From: Curvivirga aplysinae
GTDB lineage: Bacteria > Pseudomonadota > Alphaproteobacteria > UBA8366 > Aestuariispiraceae
Direction: 5' to 3'
DNA: 33,174 bases
Assembly: GCF_009711445.1 (NCBI RefSeq)
Contig: NZ_SMMC01000186.1
Location: 1-33,174 of the forward strand
This document shows, in pieces, positions 10,193-33,174 of this stretch; position 1 is the stretch's first letter, and the number at the start of each line of letters is the position of its first letter. The translations under genes were made by a program, and so were the position numbers. The notes under the pieces were generated by a model. That model made no database searches. It was not told the DNA's origin and saw only the letters and a list, made by a program, of their open reading frames with translations.

Positions 10193-12358
10193 TTACTCCT
10201 GTTCTTGTGAGGATTGATAAGCGCCCATTGTTGAAGCATCCAGTAGTGGGATATTTTTAAGGCGCTCTATAACTTTTTCTGGGGAGATGGCTTCACGAGC
10301 CGCATATTCCCCTTGCTTCATTCGATAATGTCCGGCGGCGCGATCAAGACCGTCACCAACTAAAGGAGCAAATCTAAGGACAGAACTTGTTAACAAACCA
10401 CTTTCACGCAAAAACCGGATCATAAAGTTTGCTGAGTTAGAATTATTCAATGCTGTCTTTGGTGGAATTGTCTTATTAACAGTCATAGCAAAGCGGTGGA
10501 TATGTTGACGCTCTTGCTTGGAAAATAATTCCTGAAAAAGTGAAGAGCCTTCTTTACTATCTTTGAATAGGTTAAAAGCATTCCTTCGAATAGCTGCAGC
10601 ATTGGTTTCTGTGTGACGCGGATTAAAGGCTTTGAGTAGAAAGGCATCTTTCATCAGCTTGATTTGATCTGAATCTTCACCAAATACAGATTTGAACCTT
10701 TTCACCATACCTACCTGTTCAGCGCGACTTGTAAGCGTTCCCGTCCCTAATAACATATTCACAACTTGCTCTGGTGTCGCGTTGTTTTCATTCAGGATTT
10801 GGACAGCTAAACGGCCTGTCTTGTCATTGCCAATTCGTTGAAATAGCCGCCCATATTCCGCCCGTAATTCACGAGCAAACTTCAACTGTTTAATTGCTTC
10901 AAGATCACCTGAAAAAAGCCCTTTCTCAACAGCTTCATCTACCCAATCATCCAGAACGGATTTCATCCGAGATAAGGCCGCTTTTTCTGTTTGCGTGGTA
11001 TTGCCACCCATGGAGCTATTGATACTACGACGGAAGAACTCAAGCTCTCGTAAATTTTTAGTTTGGACAGTATCCAAGCCACCAACAACCGAGGCCTTAT
11101 TTCCACCACCCACAACACCCTGAACTGAACTTGATTTAAACTTTGCAGCTCTTTTCAGCACACCTTGCAAAACATTAGCTTCATCAAGGTCAATCGCCAT
11201 ATCTTCGACAACACTGTTAAGACGCTTATGAAGCTCGTCCGTATCTCTTAAAGAAACTTCAACGGCCTGATCGTCAACGGCGTCATATGCTTTACCAACT
11301 TGGGCCTTTACAGACTGTTCAGCTTCTATAAAATTCTTCTGTAATTGCTCACCTATACCTCGGCTTCCATCCGCAGGGCTTCCCGCACCTATCTGATCAC
11401 GAATACCTTGAGCCGCATCATCAATGGCAGCGTCCTGTCTTTGGCTGAACTCTTCCATGACATTTTGCGCCCCCTCTCCACGGTGGCCTTGACGCAAAGC
11501 TTCTTCTTTCTGCAATTGGGCAATACGTCCCTGACCTTCCGGCATGGCCTGACCGCGAGTTAACGGGATTTGGTCAATAGGGTCATCCGCCATACTTTCA
11601 ACAACAGTTTCGCCACCTTCTAGGGCTGTGGATTTTGCAACCTCACTGCCCGGCAAACTCTCACGAGCCACATTAAAGGCTTTCTTTCCTGCCTTAATCA
11701 TCGGAGGTAACAGCGCCTCAGTCGTTGCACCAATAAGCCCATCCTCACCAACCTTCCCAAGGTCCATTTCTTCTTTAATGCCCGTCCCTGTCAGTATGGC
11801 TTGTTGTCCAGCAGATACCGCAGCATCACCGCCGCCAGCAACCATCATTCTTGTAAGCGCATTTGCACCCTTGAATAGCTTGGGCAGCTTGGTTGCTGGG
11901 ATGAGGAATTGTCCTGCCTGAGAAACGATATCCCCAACATCACGACCAGAAAACCCCGGCTTATTGACATAGGCACTTGTTGAATTTCCGTTTTCATCCG
12001 TCCATGTCAAAATAGGATTGTCGTACTTATCTACTGATAGTTCAGGATCGCCAAAATTCCACCAGCCATCAGAATAAATCTTGGCTTTCTCCATTGGGTC
12101 GGTAGTAAGTTCAACGCGCGGATCCGGAAATAGATTTGTTAATCCTGCATCAGAAGCAATACCTAAATCAGTGTCGCCAAGCTCAGGCATATCAGGGAAC
12201 TCAATGCCACCATCATCCTCTGCTGTTTTTGTAGTTCCTTTGATGAATGCAGAGCCTAGACGTGCATTATCACGCATAACAGCTCCATCAGGCAAAGCAG
12301 GTAAATCGCCATTACCTTTAATCTTCGCCCCATTTGGAAGTGGCGGTAAATTATCCAT
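10193..12358 (-). CDS. P22 gp16-like DNA injection protein
   Basis: This 721-residue virion protein begins with two proline-rich repeats (LPPLPNGAK, LPALPDGAV), then hydrophobic helices around residues 145-215 (VSQAGQFLIPATKLPKLFKG) and long charged helices to the end. Order in the gene cluster (after gp7- and gp20-like genes, before the fibre) and architecture point to the P22 gp16 class, ejected into the cell to move DNA through the envelope. It is longer than P22 gp16 (about 609). A GGAG precedes the ATG. A minus-strand terminator hairpin lies immediately upstream, so expression needs either antitermination or a local promoter. Direct similarity to gp16 is weak by eye; the call relies on position and helical content. 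Confidence 0.65.
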   Translation of the reverse strand: MDNLPPLPNGAKIKGNGDLPALPDGAVMRDNARLGSAFIKGTTKTAEDDGGIEFPDMPELGDTDLGIASDAGLTNLFPDPRVELTTDPMEKAKIYSDGWWNFGDPELSVDKYDNPILTWTDENGNSTSAYVNKPGFSGRDVGDIVSQAGQFLIPATKLPKLFKGANALTRMMVAGGGDAAVSAGQQAILTGTGIKEEMDLGKVGEDGLIGATTEALLPPMIKAGKKAFNVARESLPGSEVAKSTALEGGETVVESMADDPIDQIPLTRGQAMPEGQGRIAQLQKEEALRQGHRGEGAQNVMEEFSQRQDAAIDDAAQGIRDQIGAGSPADGSRGIGEQLQKNFIEAEQSVKAQVGKAYDAVDDQAVEVSLRDTDELHKRLNSVVEDMAIDLDEANVLQGVLKRAAKFKSSSVQGVVGGGNKASVVGGLDTVQTKNLRELEFFRRSINSSMGGNTTQTEKAALSRMKSVLDDWVDEAVEKGLFSGDLEAIKQLKFARELRAEYGRLFQRIGNDKTGRLAVQILNENNATPEQVVNMLLGTGTLTSRAEQVGMVKRFKSVFGEDSDQIKLMKDAFLLKAFNPRHTETNAAAIRRNAFNLFKDSKEGSSLFQELFSKQERQHIHRFAMTVNKTIPPKTALNNSNSANFMIRFLRESGLLTSSVLRFAPLVGDGLDRAAGHYRMKQGEYAAREAISPEKVIERLKNIPLLDASTMGAYQSSQEQE

Positions 12359-12370
12359 CTATCTCTCCAA

Positions 12371-12395
12371 CAAAAAAGGAGGCCGAAGCCTCCTT
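12371..12395 (-). terminator. UUCG-loop terminator upstream of gp16-like gene
   Basis: On the minus strand, AAGGAGGC-TTCG-GCCTCCTT (12395 to 12376) is an 8-bp perfect stem with a C(UUCG)G tetraloop, followed by a T6 tail. It sits 12 bp upstream of the gp16-like start, so it separates the antirepressor operon from gp16. Confidence 0.85.
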
Positions 12396-12501: not shown

Positions 12502-12753
12502 CTATCGCAAACCTATGTAGAATGCAAAACAAGCGCACAACAAACATACAACTCGCTGAAACAGAATCCACTTCTCTATTTGCTCAGGGCTTTTATCTTC
12601 GTAAAACCCCCTATAAATAAAGTTCGTTCGCAAGCAAACGCGATGCCAAGCCCAAGCAAATTTATTCAAGGTTAGCAGTAAGAAAAATGCCCCCGCAAAG
12701 AAGGGTATAAATAAAATGAGAATTAAGAATGGCATTAATACATATTCTAACAT
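12502..12753 (-). CDS. Small membrane protein of the immI-like island
   Basis: The frame is open from a TTG at 12798, but the ATG at 12751-12753 has AAAGG at proper spacing and gives an 83-residue protein, so it is preferred. Residues 2-28 are strongly hydrophobic (YVLMPFLILILFIPFFAGAF) and residues 62-82 form a second span with cysteines (VVCLLCACFAF). The loop holds charged residues. It is the last gene of the antirepressor operon. Function is unknown; superinfection exclusion would be in character for such a gene. Confidence 0.55.
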   Translation of the reverse strand: MLEYVLMPFLILILFIPFFAGAFFLLLTLNKFAWAWHRVCLRTNFIYRGFYEDKSPEQIEKWILFQRVVCLLCACFAFYIGLR

Positions 12754-12788
12754 AACGCCTTTAATTCTATATATTTTCTGCAACAAAG

Positions 12789-12809
12789 AAAGGGGCAATT
12801 AAGCCCCTT
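12789..12809. terminator. Bidirectional hairpin between small genes
   Basis: AAAGGGGC and GCCCCTT form a near-perfect stem around AATTAA. The hairpin covers the stop codon of the 56-residue gene. On the minus strand it runs into TCTTTG, a weak U-tract. It may partly end transcription before the membrane protein gene. Confidence 0.5.
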
Positions 12810-12969
12810 CTATTTGCAACTCTCTCATTAAGTTTTTCAAACTATCCTTATTTCCCCTAACAAACTCAGCGTTCACCATATCGAATATCTCCACAGTTCT
12901 CGGCCCATGCTCGGACGGGTCCCTGCGAAGCCAAGCTTGATACTCGGCTTCTCTGGATTTGGTGAACAT
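12799..12969 (-). CDS. Small helical protein, 56 aa
   Basis: This short frame starts at ATG 12967-12969 and ends at TAA 12799-12801. The product begins MFTKSREAEYQAWLRR and ends MRELQIEGA. It is charged and helical throughout, with no membrane segment. It starts two bases after the stop of the preceding 76-residue gene, so it is probably co-transcribed and coupled in the antirepressor operon. No domain is recognised. Small charged proteins in this position often bind a host or phage regulator, but that is a guess. Confidence 0.6.
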   Translation of the reverse strand: MFTKSREAEYQAWLRRDPSEHGPRTVEIFDMVNAEFVRGNKDSLKNLMRELQIEGA

Positions 12970-12971
12970 AC

Positions 12972-13202
12972 CTAAGCCGTTTCTATCTCGAGTATTTTAA
13001 ATATACCGTGAATACGTTTACGGGCTTTGGGCTTTATCGTTACCTTTCTGCCTTCCATCCTATTACGTATCTTATCAATACATTCTAGAAACAGCATTTG
13101 CTCTCTCGGCTTTAGTTGTTCCACAAACTCTGACACCTTCTGCTTTTCACTCGGTGTTAGAAGCTTTACCTTTTCAGCAAAGGCATGCTCATGTGGAGTC
13201 AT
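12972..13202 (-). CDS. Hypothetical protein downstream of antirepressor
   Basis: This 76-residue, strongly basic helical protein starts 3 bp after the Rha/KilAC gene stop. It begins MTPHEHAFAEKVKLLTPSEKQ and ends with a Lys/Arg-rich segment (GRKVTIKPKARKRIHG). The basic end could bind nucleic acid. It belongs to the same operon as the Arc-like and antirepressor genes. No family is recognised. Confidence 0.65.
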   Translation of the reverse strand: MTPHEHAFAEKVKLLTPSEKQKVSEFVEQLKPREQMLFLECIDKIRNRMEGRKVTIKPKARKRIHGIFKILEIETA

Positions 13203-13205
13203 GGG

Positions 13206-13952
13206 TTACGCAGCAGAATCAAGCTTTACGTGATCCGGCACTCGCTTCGCGAGCCATTCTAACCCTTTTGGCGTAATAAAAACCCGAGGTCGTGCCTTTC
13301 CATCAATAATGTCACTCTTTACCTCGAAGTAACCTTTTTGAATATAGTATATGCGGGCTACCAAGTTACCACCTTGATAAAAAAGAATTTCTTGCTTTAG
13401 CCACTGAATGAACTTATTTGGCTTGCAATTTAATGCACGACCACCCTGCTGCAAACCGTACAAACCTTCAGCATTTGCAAAACTTTCGTAAAAGTAAACC
13501 TTGTCACGGTCTTCGGCTACTTTTGCTTCTAACTCAATAACTTTCTCTGTTTGATCTGCTGCCAATCTTAGGGCGTCAGCTAAATTATCAGGAATTTCAT
13601 AACCGCCGGTTCGAAGCTTATTTTCTATCTGATTGAATTGAGCGATGTAAGCTTCCTTAAACTTAGCAGCTTCTTTTCCTGTAAAGCCCATAACTAAGAA
13701 AATGAAACCGTCTTTGGTCATTTCATACATACGGTATGTCTGGCCATTTTGTTCATCTACATAAGGGGCCTGCTGAAAATTCAGCAGCCTAAATTCCTCA
13801 CTACAGTCTAGCTTATCTATGGATTGCAGAACATTACGATGTTCTTTTTTAAAGTAAGCCGCCACATCACGAGAATTAGCTTTTACAACGCCATTTTTCT
13901 CATAAACACGTGGCTCAGGTTGACTTTTTGGTAAATTATTACTAGATTCCAT
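13206..13952 (-). CDS. Rha/KilAC-type phage antirepressor
   Basis: This 248-residue protein has two recognised modules. Residues about 15-115 are the Rha (pRha) domain, with the typical SRDVAAYFKKEHRNVLQSID and the later YRMYEMTKDGFIFLVMGFTG. Residues about 135-245 form a KilAC/ANT antirepressor domain (ALRLAADQ linker helix, FYESFANAEGLYG, RALNCKPNKFIQWL, then PRVFITPKGLEWLA). Proteins of this build inactivate phage repressors by direct binding, like P22 Ant. It follows a 54-residue ribbon-helix-helix gene in the same transcript, exactly as Ant follows Arc in P22. A hairpin between the two genes may tune its translation. Its likely target is the main repressor at 32544. Confidence 0.85.
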   Translation of the reverse strand: MESSNNLPKSQPEPRVYEKNGVVKANSRDVAAYFKKEHRNVLQSIDKLDCSEEFRLLNFQQAPYVDEQNGQTYRMYEMTKDGFIFLVMGFTGKEAAKFKEAYIAQFNQIENKLRTGGYEIPDNLADALRLAADQTEKVIELEAKVAEDRDKVYFYESFANAEGLYGLQQGGRALNCKPNKFIQWLKQEILFYQGGNLVARIYYIQKGYFEVKSDIIDGKARPRVFITPKGLEWLAKRVPDHVKLDSAA

Positions 13953-13990
13953 ATCAGAAATCCTTTCTATGACTTAGAAATTTCTACACA

Positions 13991-14019
13991 AACCCTCGGA
14001 AGTACCAGTTCCGGGGGTT
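13991..14019. promoter_or_regulatory. Hairpin between Arc-like gene and antirepressor gene
   Basis: Arms 13991-14001 and 14009-14019 pair over 11 positions with one mismatch around a 7-nt loop. On the minus strand no U-tract follows, so it may act as an mRNA stability or attenuation element ahead of the antirepressor. On the plus strand it is followed by TTTATTTATTTG and could terminate. Confidence 0.5.
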
Positions 14020-14183
14020 TATTTATTTGAGGCTTGTGCCTCCAAGGCATGTAAGCCTTTTTCTATTACTCGACGGAATGTTTCGGATTCAGTCGGCAAT
14101 TTCAGTACATATCGCAAATCATCAATTCGCTGGACAGTTTCTGGCGTTAGCGATAATACTTTACGTTCTGTTAACACTTTCAT
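14019..14183 (-). CDS. Ribbon-helix-helix repressor, Arc-like
   Basis: This 54-residue protein (starts MKVLTERKVLSLTPETVQRI) has a ribbon strand at residues 5-13 (TERKVLSLT) and two helices at about 14-27 and 32-46 (SETFRRVIEKGLHAL), the layout of Arc, Mnt and related RHH repressors. AAGGAG lies 6 nt before the ATG. It is the first gene of the operon that continues into the antirepressor. Its promoter is TTGACA-N17-TATAGT with palindromes inside the spacer, so autorepression and repression of the antirepressor are likely, as for P22 Arc. The RHH fold is clear by pattern. Confidence 0.82.
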   Translation of the reverse strand: MKVLTERKVLSLTPETVQRIDDLRYVLKLPTESETFRRVIEKGLHALEAQASNK

Positions 14184-14216
14184 ATCTACTCCTTTAATAT
14201 ATGATTAAGTGTTGTA

Positions 14217-14245
14217 ACTATAGTATGCATACTTAAGTATGTCAA
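14217..14245 (-). promoter_or_regulatory. Promoter with embedded operators (P-ant-like)
   Basis: Minus-strand TTGACA (14245-14240), a 17-bp spacer and TATAGT (14222-14217) make a near-consensus sigma-70 promoter for the Arc-like/antirepressor operon. The spacer holds two overlapping perfect palindromes: AGTATGCATACT (14222-14233) and CATACTTAAGTATG (14228-14241). These give three alternating AGTATG half-sites, suited to RHH dimers. The divergent RHH gene begins at 14256, so both genes can be controlled here. Confidence 0.8.
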
Positions 14246-14255
14246 TAGGTGTTTC

Positions 14256-14645
14256 ATGGCTTTAGGTAAAGATACCCATCGCAAGGTTGTAAATTTGTCG
14301 AGCGATCTCTTGTCTCGAATAAATATTTATCAAGAAAAGAATAATATAGCTTCAGAAGGTGAAGCTTTCAGACAGCTAATCGAGCTGGGTTTGAATACTC
14401 AAGAGAGTAACGAGGACATATCCATGAGATGCCGCATAGCAAAAGATGAAGGTAAATCCTTTGGTTGGATAATCGCCAATATTCTCGACAATTTACCACA
14501 AGTTGTCGGATATGAAGTAACCTCCAAAGGTCTGACTGTTACTTTTTCAAACGCCGATGTTCTAGTAGGAAAAAAAGACTCTGACAAATGGCATCTTCAC
14601 CTAGAAAGTGGCGGTGTTATGGAGATTTATTACATCCCATTTTAA
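14256..14645 (+). CDS. Divergent ribbon-helix-helix regulator, Mnt-like position
   Basis: This 129-residue protein has an RHH-type N-terminus at residues 8-50: strand RKVVNLSSD, helix LLSRINIYQEKNN and helix SEGEAFRQLIELGLN. A further 80-residue domain of mixed strands (for example YEVTSKGLTVTFSNADVLV) follows and is not recognised; it could be an effector or oligomerisation domain. It is transcribed away from the Arc-like gene over a shared 72-bp control region. In P22 immI, Mnt is the RHH protein that faces Arc and shuts off the antirepressor in the lysogen. The same job is proposed here from layout, not from close similarity. Confidence 0.75.
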   Translation: MALGKDTHRKVVNLSSDLLSRINIYQEKNNIASEGEAFRQLIELGLNTQESNEDISMRCRIAKDEGKSFGWIIANILDNLPQVVGYEVTSKGLTVTFSNADVLVGKKDSDKWHLHLESGGVMEIYYIPF

Positions 14646-14771: not shown

Positions 14772-14802
14772 TAAAGGTTATATAAGCGTTATATAACCTT
14801 TA
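14772..14802. repeat. 14-bp-stem palindrome with ATAA-GCG-TTAT core
   Basis: Arms 14772-14785 and 14789-14802 are perfect complements around GCG. The inner core TTATATAA-GCG-TTATATAA is related to the cores of the next two palindromes. Confidence 0.85.
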
Positions 14803-14816
14803 GGCTAAACCTTCTC

Positions 14817-14840
14817 CGTTGAATAAGCGCTTATTCAACG
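14817..14840. repeat. Perfect 24-bp palindrome
   Basis: Two 12-base halves (CGTTGAATAAGC and its complement) meet without a spacer. The centre is GAATAAGCGCTTATTC, again with ATAA-GC-TTAT. It is 14 bp from the previous palindrome. Confidence 0.9.
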
Positions 14841-14882
14841 AAATAAAAATACACTTCTTTATAGCTACGTTAACCCCAAATC

Positions 14883-14905
14883 TTTCAGATAAGCCTTATC
14901 TGAAA
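14883..14905. repeat. 10-bp-stem palindrome with ATAA-GCC-TTAT core
   Basis: Arms 14883-14892 and 14896-14905 (TTTCAGATAA and its complement) flank GCC. An A-run follows on the plus strand, so it is not a plus-strand terminator. Confidence 0.85.
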
Positions 14906-15038: not shown

Positions 15039-15275
15039 ATGCGCTATTTACTATTACTCCTTTTCTTTGTGACTCCTGCCATGGCAGAAGAAGAGCCTAT
15101 TTGGGTTCAGAAGGAGGCGATATGCGTTCATATCCATCCTGAATATCAGGAAGAATGGGGAGGAAAGATGGCTACCTTCCTTCCACCGTTCACCAAGCAA
15201 AACATTGATACCTTCAAATTTATCATTGAAACCAATGAAGGTTACTTAAGACATTGTAGAAATGACGCAACCTAA
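15039..15275 (+). CDS. Small secreted protein
   Basis: This 78-residue protein has a clean signal peptide (MRYLLLLLFFVTPAMA, cleavage after Ala16). The mature 62 residues contain two cysteines (C29, C73) that could form one disulfide, with an acidic start (EEEP). It is on the plus strand between minus-strand virion genes and its end overlaps the gp20-like gene by 4 bp. The Shine-Dalgarno is poor (AAGG almost touching the ATG). Plus-strand orientation suggests a moron expressed in the lysogen. Function is unknown; a periplasmic role is inferred. Confidence 0.6.
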   Translation: MRYLLLLLFFVTPAMAEEEPIWVQKEAICVHIHPEYQEEWGGKMATFLPPFTKQNIDTFKFIIETNEGYLRHCRNDAT

Positions 15276-16801
15276 TAGGTCTTATTGTTTCTGAAATCCT
15301 CTTTAGAAAAACTCCGCCCACCCTGCGGCCTTCCACCCACGCCACTTTGAGGCCTTAACTGTGGCATATCTGCAGTTTCCTTCGGCACCCACTCCCCATT
15401 TCTAACAACAATTTCTGTACCATCTGGCATAACTGCTATTGGTTCGTCTGCTGTTGGAGCTTGTGCTTGCTGCGTATGATAGGGAATACCATCTTTGTTT
15501 ACACTTGGATTAGCGACAGCCATTACTTCCGGTTCAAGATCAAGAGGTGGCATTGAAATCATTTCATCGAACCAATCATCCTCGGCCCCCTCCAATGTAC
15601 CATTCTGTCTCCTAAACTGGCGATAAAACTGAAACTTCCCTATATCTCTTTGAGCTAACTGTTTAGCGACTTTAATAAGGTATTTCTGTGCTTCTGGTGT
15701 ATTCCCCAAAGTTGCTACTGTTTCCATGATGCGTTCAGCGTCTTTGTCGGTTTGGGGTCCTTTTTGCTGTGCAAGTTTTTCCAGAACCATGTTACCCATC
15801 AGGCCAGAGAATTGTTGGCTTTCAGTAAAGTTCTGAACCACGCTATCCGGATCAAGTCCAACCCATTGAGCAATATTACCAACAGCTTGCTTGAGGCCCA
15901 TAGGCAAGGTTTCACCCGGCTTCAAACTATCGAGCACTTTTTCCGCGCCCTGAAGACTGTAGAGACTTGTTTGTGAAGATGTCGCTGTATCTCTAATCCC
16001 TTCGTAGTTACTTACCAGAGACTTGCTCCACTGCTTTTGTTCTTCTCCTACATCATGCGTGACGTTATTAACCGTAACACCGCGCCCCTTACTAACACCT
16101 GCGGCGACCTGATCATATCCCGCCTGAGTAATAAGGCCATTTTTTAAATCTTGGCCCGCTTTTGCTAATGTCGTCTGCGGCTTAGGCTGATCCATAGGCG
16201 GTACATAACCCTCTAACTCACGCGGCTCTCCATATTCGTTAAGTTGCACATAAACAACTTCGCCCGTATCAGGATCAACCATCTTTGTAGCTTTCCCGTA
16301 CTTCTCAGGGTCCATCATGGAGTTGGCCATATTATTCATGGTTTCGAAGAGTTGAGGATTGTAACTCTCTGGCAGTTCCCCCATCGGAATACCAGATTGA
16401 GCGACAAGCTGTTTAAACCCTGCATATGCTTCCGCCTTCTGCTCTTCTGTATGATCTGGATTATCCATAAAAGCCATCATACTTTTTGTGATGCGGGAGA
16501 CAGGCGCTGCGGTATCTTTATGCTTGTTCCACTTATCTTTCCAATCCGCTCTTTTCTTCTGGTTGTGCAATTCATTCATGCTATGACCAGCTTGCCCGTC
16601 TACCTTATATGCCGCATCAATAGCGCCTTGAGGGTCGGTTCTAAGTTGATTGTATAACGGGCTCAGAGCATTCCTGACTTCCGTATTTCGTGCCGTTTCT
16701 TTATTATCCATTTCAAGACGGTCATTCATCAAAGCATTACGTCTGTTGCTTATTCTGTTTCGATCATTTTTAGCTAGATCAACTTGAAGAAAATTGCTCA
16801 T
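15272..16801 (-). CDS. P22 gp20-like DNA transfer protein
   Basis: This 509-residue protein is read from ATG 16799-16801, which has GGTGGAT upstream; a GTG three codons earlier is less likely. It is highly polar and helical, rich in Gln/Asn/Lys, with no enzyme motif, and ends in a Pro/Gly-rich tail (LRPQSGVGGRPQGGRSF). It follows the gp7-like gene after a short gap, as gene 20 follows gene 7 in P22. Such proteins are packed in the virion and ejected with DNA. Similarity is mainly positional, so the specific gp20 label is tentative. Confidence 0.62.
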   Translation of the reverse strand: MSNFLQVDLAKNDRNRISNRRNALMNDRLEMDNKETARNTEVRNALSPLYNQLRTDPQGAIDAAYKVDGQAGHSMNELHNQKKRADWKDKWNKHKDTAAPVSRITKSMMAFMDNPDHTEEQKAEAYAGFKQLVAQSGIPMGELPESYNPQLFETMNNMANSMMDPEKYGKATKMVDPDTGEVVYVQLNEYGEPRELEGYVPPMDQPKPQTTLAKAGQDLKNGLITQAGYDQVAAGVSKGRGVTVNNVTHDVGEEQKQWSKSLVSNYEGIRDTATSSQTSLYSLQGAEKVLDSLKPGETLPMGLKQAVGNIAQWVGLDPDSVVQNFTESQQFSGLMGNMVLEKLAQQKGPQTDKDAERIMETVATLGNTPEAQKYLIKVAKQLAQRDIGKFQFYRQFRRQNGTLEGAEDDWFDEMISMPPLDLEPEVMAVANPSVNKDGIPYHTQQAQAPTADEPIAVMPDGTEIVVRNGEWVPKETADMPQLRPQSGVGGRPQGGRSFSKEDFRNNKTY

Positions 16802-16802
16802 T

Positions 16803-17411
16803 CTATCCACCGTATGCGTAATGTAGATTATTGATGCCCTGCGTTAAGGCATTCGCCCTATTGGCGTATGATGTGCCGCGTGCGTTACCAGCTGTGATAG
16901 CGGCATTTCCGATATTGCCAGCCCCTGCGAAAGATAATGCATTTTGATTTTGCATTGATACATGGCCTAATCCAGCCATAGAGCGGAGGGAGTTTGTATG
17001 ATTGTTATACTCGCCTGAAGCTTCACTACCTGCGTAATCAAGTATCCTTTTTGTTTGAGCCCCACTATTCAAGCGACCAATAGAAGACGCAGATTTATCT
17101 AAGGCATCAATACTTTTTCCGATACGATACTCAAAGCCCGGGGTTTCATAGAAATTTGCCATTGCAGTGGCAGCACGTTCCTCGCGTGTACCGGGAGCAC
17201 CTTTGTAATCAAGACCACTCAAAGCTGAGAGATGGTTTAAGGCGTTATATCCGGCCTCTCTATATGGCTCGCTGTCTTTGCGTGCCAATTCCACTGCTTT
17301 ATTCTGCGCATCAATTGCTGCGTTCGTTCCGCTCTGAATAGCGCTAGCTTGCTTTTTTGCGGCTTGGTAATTTAACAAACCACCTGCTGCTGCTGCCCAA
17401 AAATCACTCAT
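16803..17411 (-). CDS. P22 gp7-like DNA transfer protein
   Basis: This 202-residue protein has an Ala/Gly-rich N-terminus (AAAAGGLLNYQAAKKQASAI), a central block DSEPYREAGYNALNHLSALSGL and a later TPGFEYRIGKSIDALDKSAS. These blocks are typical of gp7-like ejection proteins of many podoviruses and related phages. The C-terminus is rich in Asn/Ala/Gly (GNIGNAAITAGNARG). Expected role: forms part of the channel or complex ejected into the periplasm ahead of the DNA. It overlaps the upstream gene by 4 bp. Confidence 0.75.
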   Translation of the reverse strand: MSDFWAAAAGGLLNYQAAKKQASAIQSGTNAAIDAQNKAVELARKDSEPYREAGYNALNHLSALSGLDYKGAPGTREERAATAMANFYETPGFEYRIGKSIDALDKSASSIGRLNSGAQTKRILDYAGSEASGEYNNHTNSLRSMAGLGHVSMQNQNALSFAGAGNIGNAAITAGNARGTSYANRANALTQGINNLHYAYGG

Positions 17412-32463: not shown

Positions 32464-32492
32464 AGAATGTGGGATTTTTCCCTCATTGTCAA
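32464..32492 (-). promoter_or_regulatory. Early promoter for Cro-like operon
   Basis: Minus-strand TTGACA (32492-32487), a 17-bp spacer and CATTCT (32469-32464, weak -10) lie just upstream of the Cro-like start. Operator 1 lies inside the spacer, so repressor binding would block polymerase directly. Confidence 0.68.
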
Positions 32493-32544
32493 TGGGATTT
32501 TTCTCACATTGGCAAAACAACAGATTCAGGGGATATTTCCCACA
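32468..32544. promoter_or_regulatory. Three repressor/Cro operators
   Basis: Three 18-bp pseudo-palindromes share the half-site TGTGGGA: operator 1 TGTGGGATTTTTCCCTCA (32468-32485), operator 2 AATGGGATTTTTCTCACA (32491-32508) and operator 3 CAGGGGATATTTCCCACA (32527-32544). Operator 3 reaches the A of the repressor ATG and covers a possible -10 (GATATT, 32532-32537) spaced 17 bp from TTGGCA (32509-32514). The layout copies lambda OR. Confidence 0.8.
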
Positions 32545-33174
32545 TGAGCCAAACATATGAAAATAGCGTCAAAGGGCGCGTAAGGCGTAGAATGGATGAG
32601 TTGAAGCTCAACCAGAACGCAGCAGCTATCAAGGCTGGTCTCCAGCGAACCGCCGTTCGTGATATTTTGGAGGGTAGATCCAAAAACCCTAGAGCTGATA
32701 CACTAAAAAAATTAGCCGTTGCTCTAGAATGCTCTGTTGACTGGCTATCTACTGGTCACGGAGAGCCGCACACCCTTAAGTTTACCCCTACAATCCCCTC
32801 ATCTTCTGAAGATGCGAACTCCAGTCAGTTTGGCGAAAGGTTAAGTCTGATAATCAGCCAGCTCGGCGGCTTAAGTAAGTCATCAGAAATACTGGGGTGC
32901 CCAGAAACATTGCTTGAAAAATGGATTATAGGCGATGAGAATATCCCAGGTAATGTTGCAGCTCATCTTTGTAGCTTAGCCGAAAAGAGTATGGATTGGC
33001 TGTTTTATGGTAAAGAGCAGAATCTTGATGAAGACTTGTTTCGTGTTGTTTGGGAAGAGTTTCACGCTGAAGCCGAGAGATTGGACTTAGAACTACCCAC
33101 AGATAAGAAACTAGACTTAATATTCCTGCTATTTAAATATTTTAAAAATACCGCAAACACCAAAGAGAGGGAGC
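32544..33174 (+). CDS. Prophage repressor with two XRE HTH domains (runs off window)
   Basis: The frame is open from ATG 32544 to the window end (210 codons plus one base, no stop), so it is partial. Residues 11-72 form one XRE HTH (RMDELKLNQNAAAIKAGLQR, then DTLKKLAVALECSVDWLSTG). Residues 96-156 form a second, diverged one (LSLIISQLGGLSKSSEILGC, then SLAEKSMDWLFYG). Both end in DWLxxG, so they look like a duplication. Residues 157-210 show no S24 peptidase, and no Ser-Lys catalytic motif is seen. A predicted -10 places the transcript start at or near the AUG, so a leaderless mRNA as for lambda cI is possible. It is the lysogeny repressor, opposite the Cro-like gene. Confidence 0.82.
   Translation, partial: MSQTYENSVKGRVRRRMDELKLNQNAAAIKAGLQRTAVRDILEGRSKNPRADTLKKLAVALECSVDWLSTGHGEPHTLKFTPTIPSSSEDANSSQFGERLSLIISQLGGLSKSSEILGCPETLLEKWIIGDENIPGNVAAHLCSLAEKSMDWLFYGKEQNLDEDLFRVVWEEFHAEAERLDLELPTDKKLDLIFLLFKYFKNTANTKERE

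Follow-up and report, generated by a model that had tools for sequence, protein, structure and literature searches.

Does the cassette of small genes at positions 12502-14645 of a Curvivirga aplysinae contig form an antirepressor module of the kind known from the immI region of phage P22, and if so, of what parts is it made? A first-pass annotation, made from the sequence alone, had read the cassette as a repeat of the logic of P22 immI (mnt-arc-ant), placed in a prophage and built of non-homologous or distant parts. The stretch of DNA analysed here, called the window, is the entire contig C24 (33,174 bp) of a genome totalling 3.56 Mb.

The cassette lies in a P22-type late-gene cluster

The minus strand of the window carries a P22-type morphogenetic cluster, with a terminase among its genes. 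The portal matched phrog_156, the coat protein phrog_283, Hc3 phrog_578 and the DNA ejection gene phrog_598, and the P22-fold coat, portal, Hc3 and ejection genes follow one another in the syntenic order by which such a cluster is recognised. The cassette is flanked by a gene in the position of gp20 (15272-16810) and one in the position of gp16 (10193-12358). This placement had been proposed earlier and is borne out by Vibrio phage 234P9, in which the homologs of the two flanking genes abut (7750/7750 in L099) with nothing between them. Relative to that phage, the cassette is therefore an insertion. The match of the gp20-position gene to Vibrio phage 234P9 is solid (E 5e-22) and that of the gp16-position gene is weak (24% identity, E 1e-6); no convincing relatives of the gp16-position protein were found in IMG/VR and phage records. 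An intrinsic terminator (12376-12395, minus strand) separates the cassette from the gp16-position gene; in P22, too, a terminator stands between ant and the late gene that follows. On the other side of the cassette, a 78-aa ORF with a signal-peptide-like start (15039-15275, plus strand) converges on the gp20-position gene with a 4 bp overlap. It is kept in contig L092 of IMG/VR, where the gp20-position protein shares 70% identity with that of the window.

Genes and proteins of the cassette

The two divergent ribbon-helix-helix (RHH) genes are separated by 72 bp (14184-14255), as had been noted. The one on the minus strand (14019-14183) encodes 54 aa and takes the position of arc, and the one on the plus strand (14256-14645) encodes 129 aa and takes the position of mnt. 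The minus-strand gene is followed by that of a 248-aa Rha-KilAC antirepressor (13206-13952, minus strand). All three ORFs were confirmed, as were the two domains of the antirepressor. KilAC proteins are often called antirepressors by annotation alone. The 248-aa protein is a member of the Rha/KilAC antirepressors (PF09669, PF03374) by profile: it scored above the Pfam gathering threshold for Phage_pRha (8.7e-31, 106.8 bits) and ANT (4.5e-17, 62.8 bits), and matched NCBIfam TIGR02681.

A Pfam search with the two RHH proteins of the window gave neither an RHH nor an Arc match. They were assigned to this class because they match each other (phmmer, 4e-4) and because a 154-aa homolog of the 129-aa protein in genome G467, which aligns along the length of the window protein with 33% identity, passes Pfam RHH_1 (22.1 against 20.5 bits). 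In the AF2 model of the 129-aa protein (pLDDT 68, pTM 0.48) two helices lie where an RHH domain needs them, and they are followed by a C-terminal alpha-beta domain of one helix and four strands. This agrees with the earlier description of a longer protein in the Mnt position with an extra domain, which differs from the C-terminal domain of its P22 counterpart. A Foldseek search of the model against PDB returned nothing significant, a PDB sequence search with both RHH proteins returned a weak CopG-family match and nothing else, and no convincing relatives of the 129-aa protein were found in IMG/VR and phage records. A chromosomal relative of 116 aa is present in G033 (L088:12853-13203), outside any evident prophage. 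It has the motif RCRxAxxEGxSFGWI.ANI in common with the 129-aa protein and adjoins a long proline/alanine-rich FliK-like ORF and a TetR-like ORF.

Downstream of the antirepressor gene, on the minus strand, are small ORFs of 76 aa (12972-13202) and 56 aa (12799-12969), and an ORF of 98 aa (12502-12798) with a TTG start, hydrophobic stretches and uncertain coding status. None of the three has a family match, and comparison with the gene adjoining the G175 antirepressor (see below) gave nothing. No toxin-family match was found among the cassette proteins.

Operon promoter and operator candidate

The operon of the small RHH gene and the antirepressor has a predicted promoter TTGACA-17-TATAGT (14217-14245, minus strand), which matches at 11 of 12 positions and is the highest-scoring promoter of the region. 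AGTATG half-sites at 14222, 14228 and 14236 form the perfect palindromes AGTATGCATACT and CATACTTAAGTATG, confirming the earlier observation of three half-sites in two overlapping palindromes within this promoter. The half-sites belong to contiguous, alternately inverted 7-bp units (TAGTATG/CATACTT/AAGTATG, 14221-14241) within the -35/-10 spacer, and this stretch is the operator candidate. Both palindromes occurred together in 0.07% of dinucleotide shuffles of the 72 bp. An operator-like palindrome in the spacer of the antirepressor promoter is also a feature of P22 immI, binding being a prediction in our case; the alternating 7-bp units are a difference from P22. Omega-type RHH repressors use heptad arrays, and the 7-bp units recall these rather than the half-site spacing of Arc. 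For the 129-aa gene, no plus-strand promoter of at least 8/12 was found.

Two other sets of repeats were seen in the window. Three operator-like repeats (TGGGATTTTTCCC-like) at 32470-32551 lie between a minus-strand ORF and an HTH repressor ORF (at about 32544) that runs off the contig; they are likely to be the primary immunity operators. The three longest perfect palindromes of the window (31 bp with a 3-nt centre, 24 bp, and 23 bp with a 1-nt centre) fall within 134 bp at 14772-14905, downstream of the 129-aa RHH gene. They share a core like ATAAGC-n-TTAT, and their tails are not of the terminator type. We rejected them as CI operators, since the CI-type repeats at 32470-32551 are TGGGATTTTTCCC-like, and a reading as chromosomal repeats was not borne out, no other convincing copies being found in the genome.

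A predicted antisense unit at the antirepressor start

Between the small RHH gene and the antirepressor gene we found a candidate antisense unit (13920-14028) that is absent from the first-pass annotation. A putative promoter, TTGACT-17-TAGATT (13920-13948, plus strand), is located inside the 5′ end of the antirepressor gene. The predicted RNA of about 73 nt (13955-14028, plus strand) would start beside the antirepressor start codon at 13952 and cover the antirepressor ribosome site, including the Shine-Dalgarno sequence GAAAGGA (13961-13967, minus strand). A predicted intrinsic terminator with 12 pairs and a U-rich tail (13990-14020, plus strand) overlaps the stop codon of the small RHH gene at 14019. 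The RNA is predicted to fold into two hairpins, a 5′ hairpin over the anti-Shine-Dalgarno stretch and the 12-bp terminator hairpin (z -5.0).

In the P22 record (NC_002371), sar is a 70-nt antisense RNA that starts one base before ant, from a promoter inside ant, and ends at the arc stop. The unit in the window is thus in the position of sar, predicted to reach from the start codon of the antirepressor gene to the stop of the small RHH gene, and P22 sar folds as the predicted RNA does (z -5.3). The likeness to sar (RF00262) covers length, two-hairpin fold, position and target, with the transcript only predicted here. There is no recognisable sequence kinship: an Rfam search of the window gave no match to sar or other meaningful RNA, and the RF00262 model found nothing in the window or in the five other modules described below, against 97.8 bits for the P22 positive control. 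A His_leader match overlapping the antisense terminator (E 0.048, below its cut-off) was discarded as not meaningful. In the portions of the open-access literature that were covered, sar figures as a P22 element, and no alphaproteobacterial counterparts were found there.

Synonymous recoding of the 5′ end of the antirepressor gene yielded such a promoter in 5% of cases, and the antisense promoter alone is therefore weak evidence. The combination of promoter and terminator is much stronger evidence for the predicted unit. A search for the combination returned it as the sole match in the window on both strands, against a background of 5 in 1.76 million strand-bases of other loci, and a lenient joint unit was expected 0.0012 times per start. 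A relaxed rule (promoter 8/12, weaker U tail) returned the annotated P22 sar start (1591). The built-in terminator scan misses the sar terminator of P22, so that its silence is no evidence; the terminator rule applied to the 68 loci described below is likewise blind to it, and it is recovered only with the U-tail setting loosened.

Recurrence in other alphaproteobacterial genomes

The first-pass annotation had suggested a search for the same gene order in other alphaproteobacterial prophages. Genomes were searched with the antirepressor protein or profile, and the loci found were then inspected for RHH genes. Five further modules with a divergent long RHH gene, a small RHH gene and a KilAC or Rha gene were obtained (G175, G485, G467, G464 and G435), the divergent RHH proteins having 138-281 aa and the small ones about 54-86 aa. 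The small RHH protein of the window resembles its own 129-aa neighbour and the small RHH proteins of the other modules. The N-termini of the antirepressors vary, being Rha in the window and G175 and AntA in G435, and the G485 protein joins a Rha head to another C-terminal part. The effector part is thus exchangeable. A different N-terminus fused to KilAC was also seen beside a small HTH gene in an operon of tail genes (L024:5713-6474); its KilAC part is 53% identical to that of the window over residues 92-247, a domain swap at the antirepressor N-terminus.

In G485 the module is situated between genes for a tape measure and a J-type tail fibre, in G467 between those for tail tube and tape measure, and in G175 it adjoins a tail tube gene and a HigBA pair. 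Four modules, including that of the window, therefore have late genes around them, and these belong to at least two unrelated virion types. The scanned neighbours of the G435 and G464 modules gave no phage family match. Directly beyond the divergent RHH gene of G175 are a HigB toxin gene (Pfam 6.5e-29) and a HigA-like HTH gene (L101:8697-9494). Two loci were left out of the count. At G158 (L104:5240-6298) an RHH gene (RHH57) diverges from a KilAC ORF with a 13-bp hairpin between them, a related but different order that is possibly a two-gene relative of the module, and at L110 an RHH gene diverges from another small ORF and Rha, with no small RHH gene detected.

RHH proteins are common antitoxins, and the HigBA pair beside the G175 module and the chromosomal relative of the 129-aa protein outside a prophage would fit an RHH pair that works as a regulator in its own right, or as the antitoxin of a toxin-antitoxin-like cassette, and whose place beside Rha resembles immI by chance. 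As the order RHH-RHH-KilAC/Rha is found in all six loci with differing antirepressors, and the cassette proteins are without a toxin-family match, we regard this as very improbable.

An antisense terminator was present in all six modules and in 3 of 68 non-redundant other Rha/KilAC loci (Fisher, 4.5e-7), by terminator and promoter rules that were finalised after viewing these loci and that allowed loops to 21 and one mismatch. The terminator rule was satisfied in 2.4% of random windows. Thus the modules differ from the other Rha/KilAC loci, which mostly lack the antisense terminator and nearly all lack an RHH pair. Antisense promoters were likewise found in 6/6 modules, with predicted starts from -5 to +10 relative to the antirepressor start codon, which in G175 and G467 was reassigned by hand from the ribosome sites. 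Since CAT, which makes up part of the -10 match, is the complement of the start codon, other Rha/KilAC starts served as controls. The promoters were looked for once the layout was known. The promoter scores at the start codon were 9, 9, 8, 9, 7 and 9 (of 12), against at most 8 in 64 controls (Mann-Whitney, 1.2e-5). The sequences were TTGCCA-17-CATATT (in two modules), TTGCCA-17-CATAAC, TTGCCT-17-CATATT, TTGCTA-17-CATATC and, in the window, TTGACT-17-TAGATT. In G464 the gap measures just 18 nt, and the locus fits only if its terminator is placed within the small RHH gene. The 5′ loop predicted for G467, UCCUUUC, complements the Shine-Dalgarno sequence GAAAGGA.

The hairpin could instead act on the sense strand, as an attenuator or partial terminator that lowers antirepressor output in a real module that makes no antisense RNA. 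In the window and G175 it has T's on both sides, so that the sense orientation also passes the terminator rule, and the sense-strand folds are stable. The sense orientation passes in only 2/6 modules, however, against 6/6 for the antisense orientation; the minus-strand tail in the window, GTGTAGAAAT, is poor for termination, and predicted antisense promoters lie at the start codon in all six modules. We therefore consider a sense-strand element unlikely and an antisense RNA the better reading of the hairpin.

Relation to P22 immI

The reading of the cassette as a counterpart of P22 immI is supported by agreement in gene order, orientation, operator placement and co-direction with the late genes. 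As in immI (NC_002371), a longer RHH gene diverges across a promoter region from a small one, the small one is first in the antirepressor operon, and the antirepressor gene runs with the late genes as a moron in the late operon. The moron-type insertion, the predicted RNA in the position of sar and the recurrence in five genomes provide further support. The antirepressor is Rha-KilAC where P22 has Ant, the site is between gp20 and gp16 where that of P22 is between gp16 and gp9, and no sieA was seen. A survey of "ant morons" described ten types in sixteen P22-like phages; all were in the interval from gene 16 to gene 9, and the rest of the morphogenetic cluster had none in the surveyed phages (PMC2629481). 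The cassette resembles these as a variable, independently controlled antirepressor cassette in a P22-type morphogenetic operon, and differs from them in lying outside the region of genes 16-9. Taken together, we give the reading of the cassette as an immI-like antirepressor module, carried by a P22-type prophage as a moron in its late operon, a probability of about three in four. The predicted elements in the six loci also support a recurrent immI-like module, which would have come about by convergence or by very deep divergence.

The earlier claim of non-homologous or distant parts holds, since an HMM of 14 module RHH domains gave only noise, about 0 bits, for the P22 Arc and Mnt frames. Descent from a common ancestor with P22 immI, followed by strong divergence, rather than independent assembly, would explain why the layout is the same in every respect and why the ejection-gene neighbourhood is common to P22, and the RHH fold and the short lengths of the parts would let sequence similarity fade. 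Against common descent, similarity to Arc, Mnt and sar is not above noise, the antirepressor family is unrelated, and other modules are in tail operons of unrelated virions; we think it rather unlikely. The wider interpretation is a portable module of immI type, in which the four-part logic of P22, including an RNA in the position of sar, was built from unrelated repressors and RNA with exchangeable KilAC/Rha effectors and moves between late operons of unrelated virion types. This would be convergent evolution of a complete circuit, for which we see even odds.

A model for the module and its significance

From the gene layout, promoter, palindromes and hairpins present in the DNA, and from their recurrence in six loci, we infer that both RHH proteins bind DNA, that the RNA is made and acts, and that the antirepressor targets a repressor. 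In the lysogen, the long RHH protein (in the role of Mnt) and the small one (in the role of Arc, autoregulatory) would occupy the palindromes within the promoter and keep the operon of the small RHH gene and the antirepressor off. A constitutive antisense RNA of about 73 nt, started beside the antirepressor start codon, would pair with the intercistronic region and hide the antirepressor ribosome site, so that leaky or late read-through mRNA would give little antirepressor. A lapse of repression, on entry into a naive cell or on induction, would release a burst of Rha-KilAC protein, which would inactivate a phage repressor and favour lytic growth. An antirepressor in a late operon is exposed to late read-through, which may plausibly be why an antisense layer is added.

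With sar, P22 immI is a textbook example of a lysis/lysogeny switch under the control of an antisense RNA. A recurrent module of this architecture, but of unrelated parts, would suggest that antirepressors in late operons demand silencing in several layers, by two repressors and by an antisense RNA against read-through. The six modules would then offer six systems in which such multi-layer silencing may be tested, together with a rule by which antisense RNAs missing from prophage annotations can be found.
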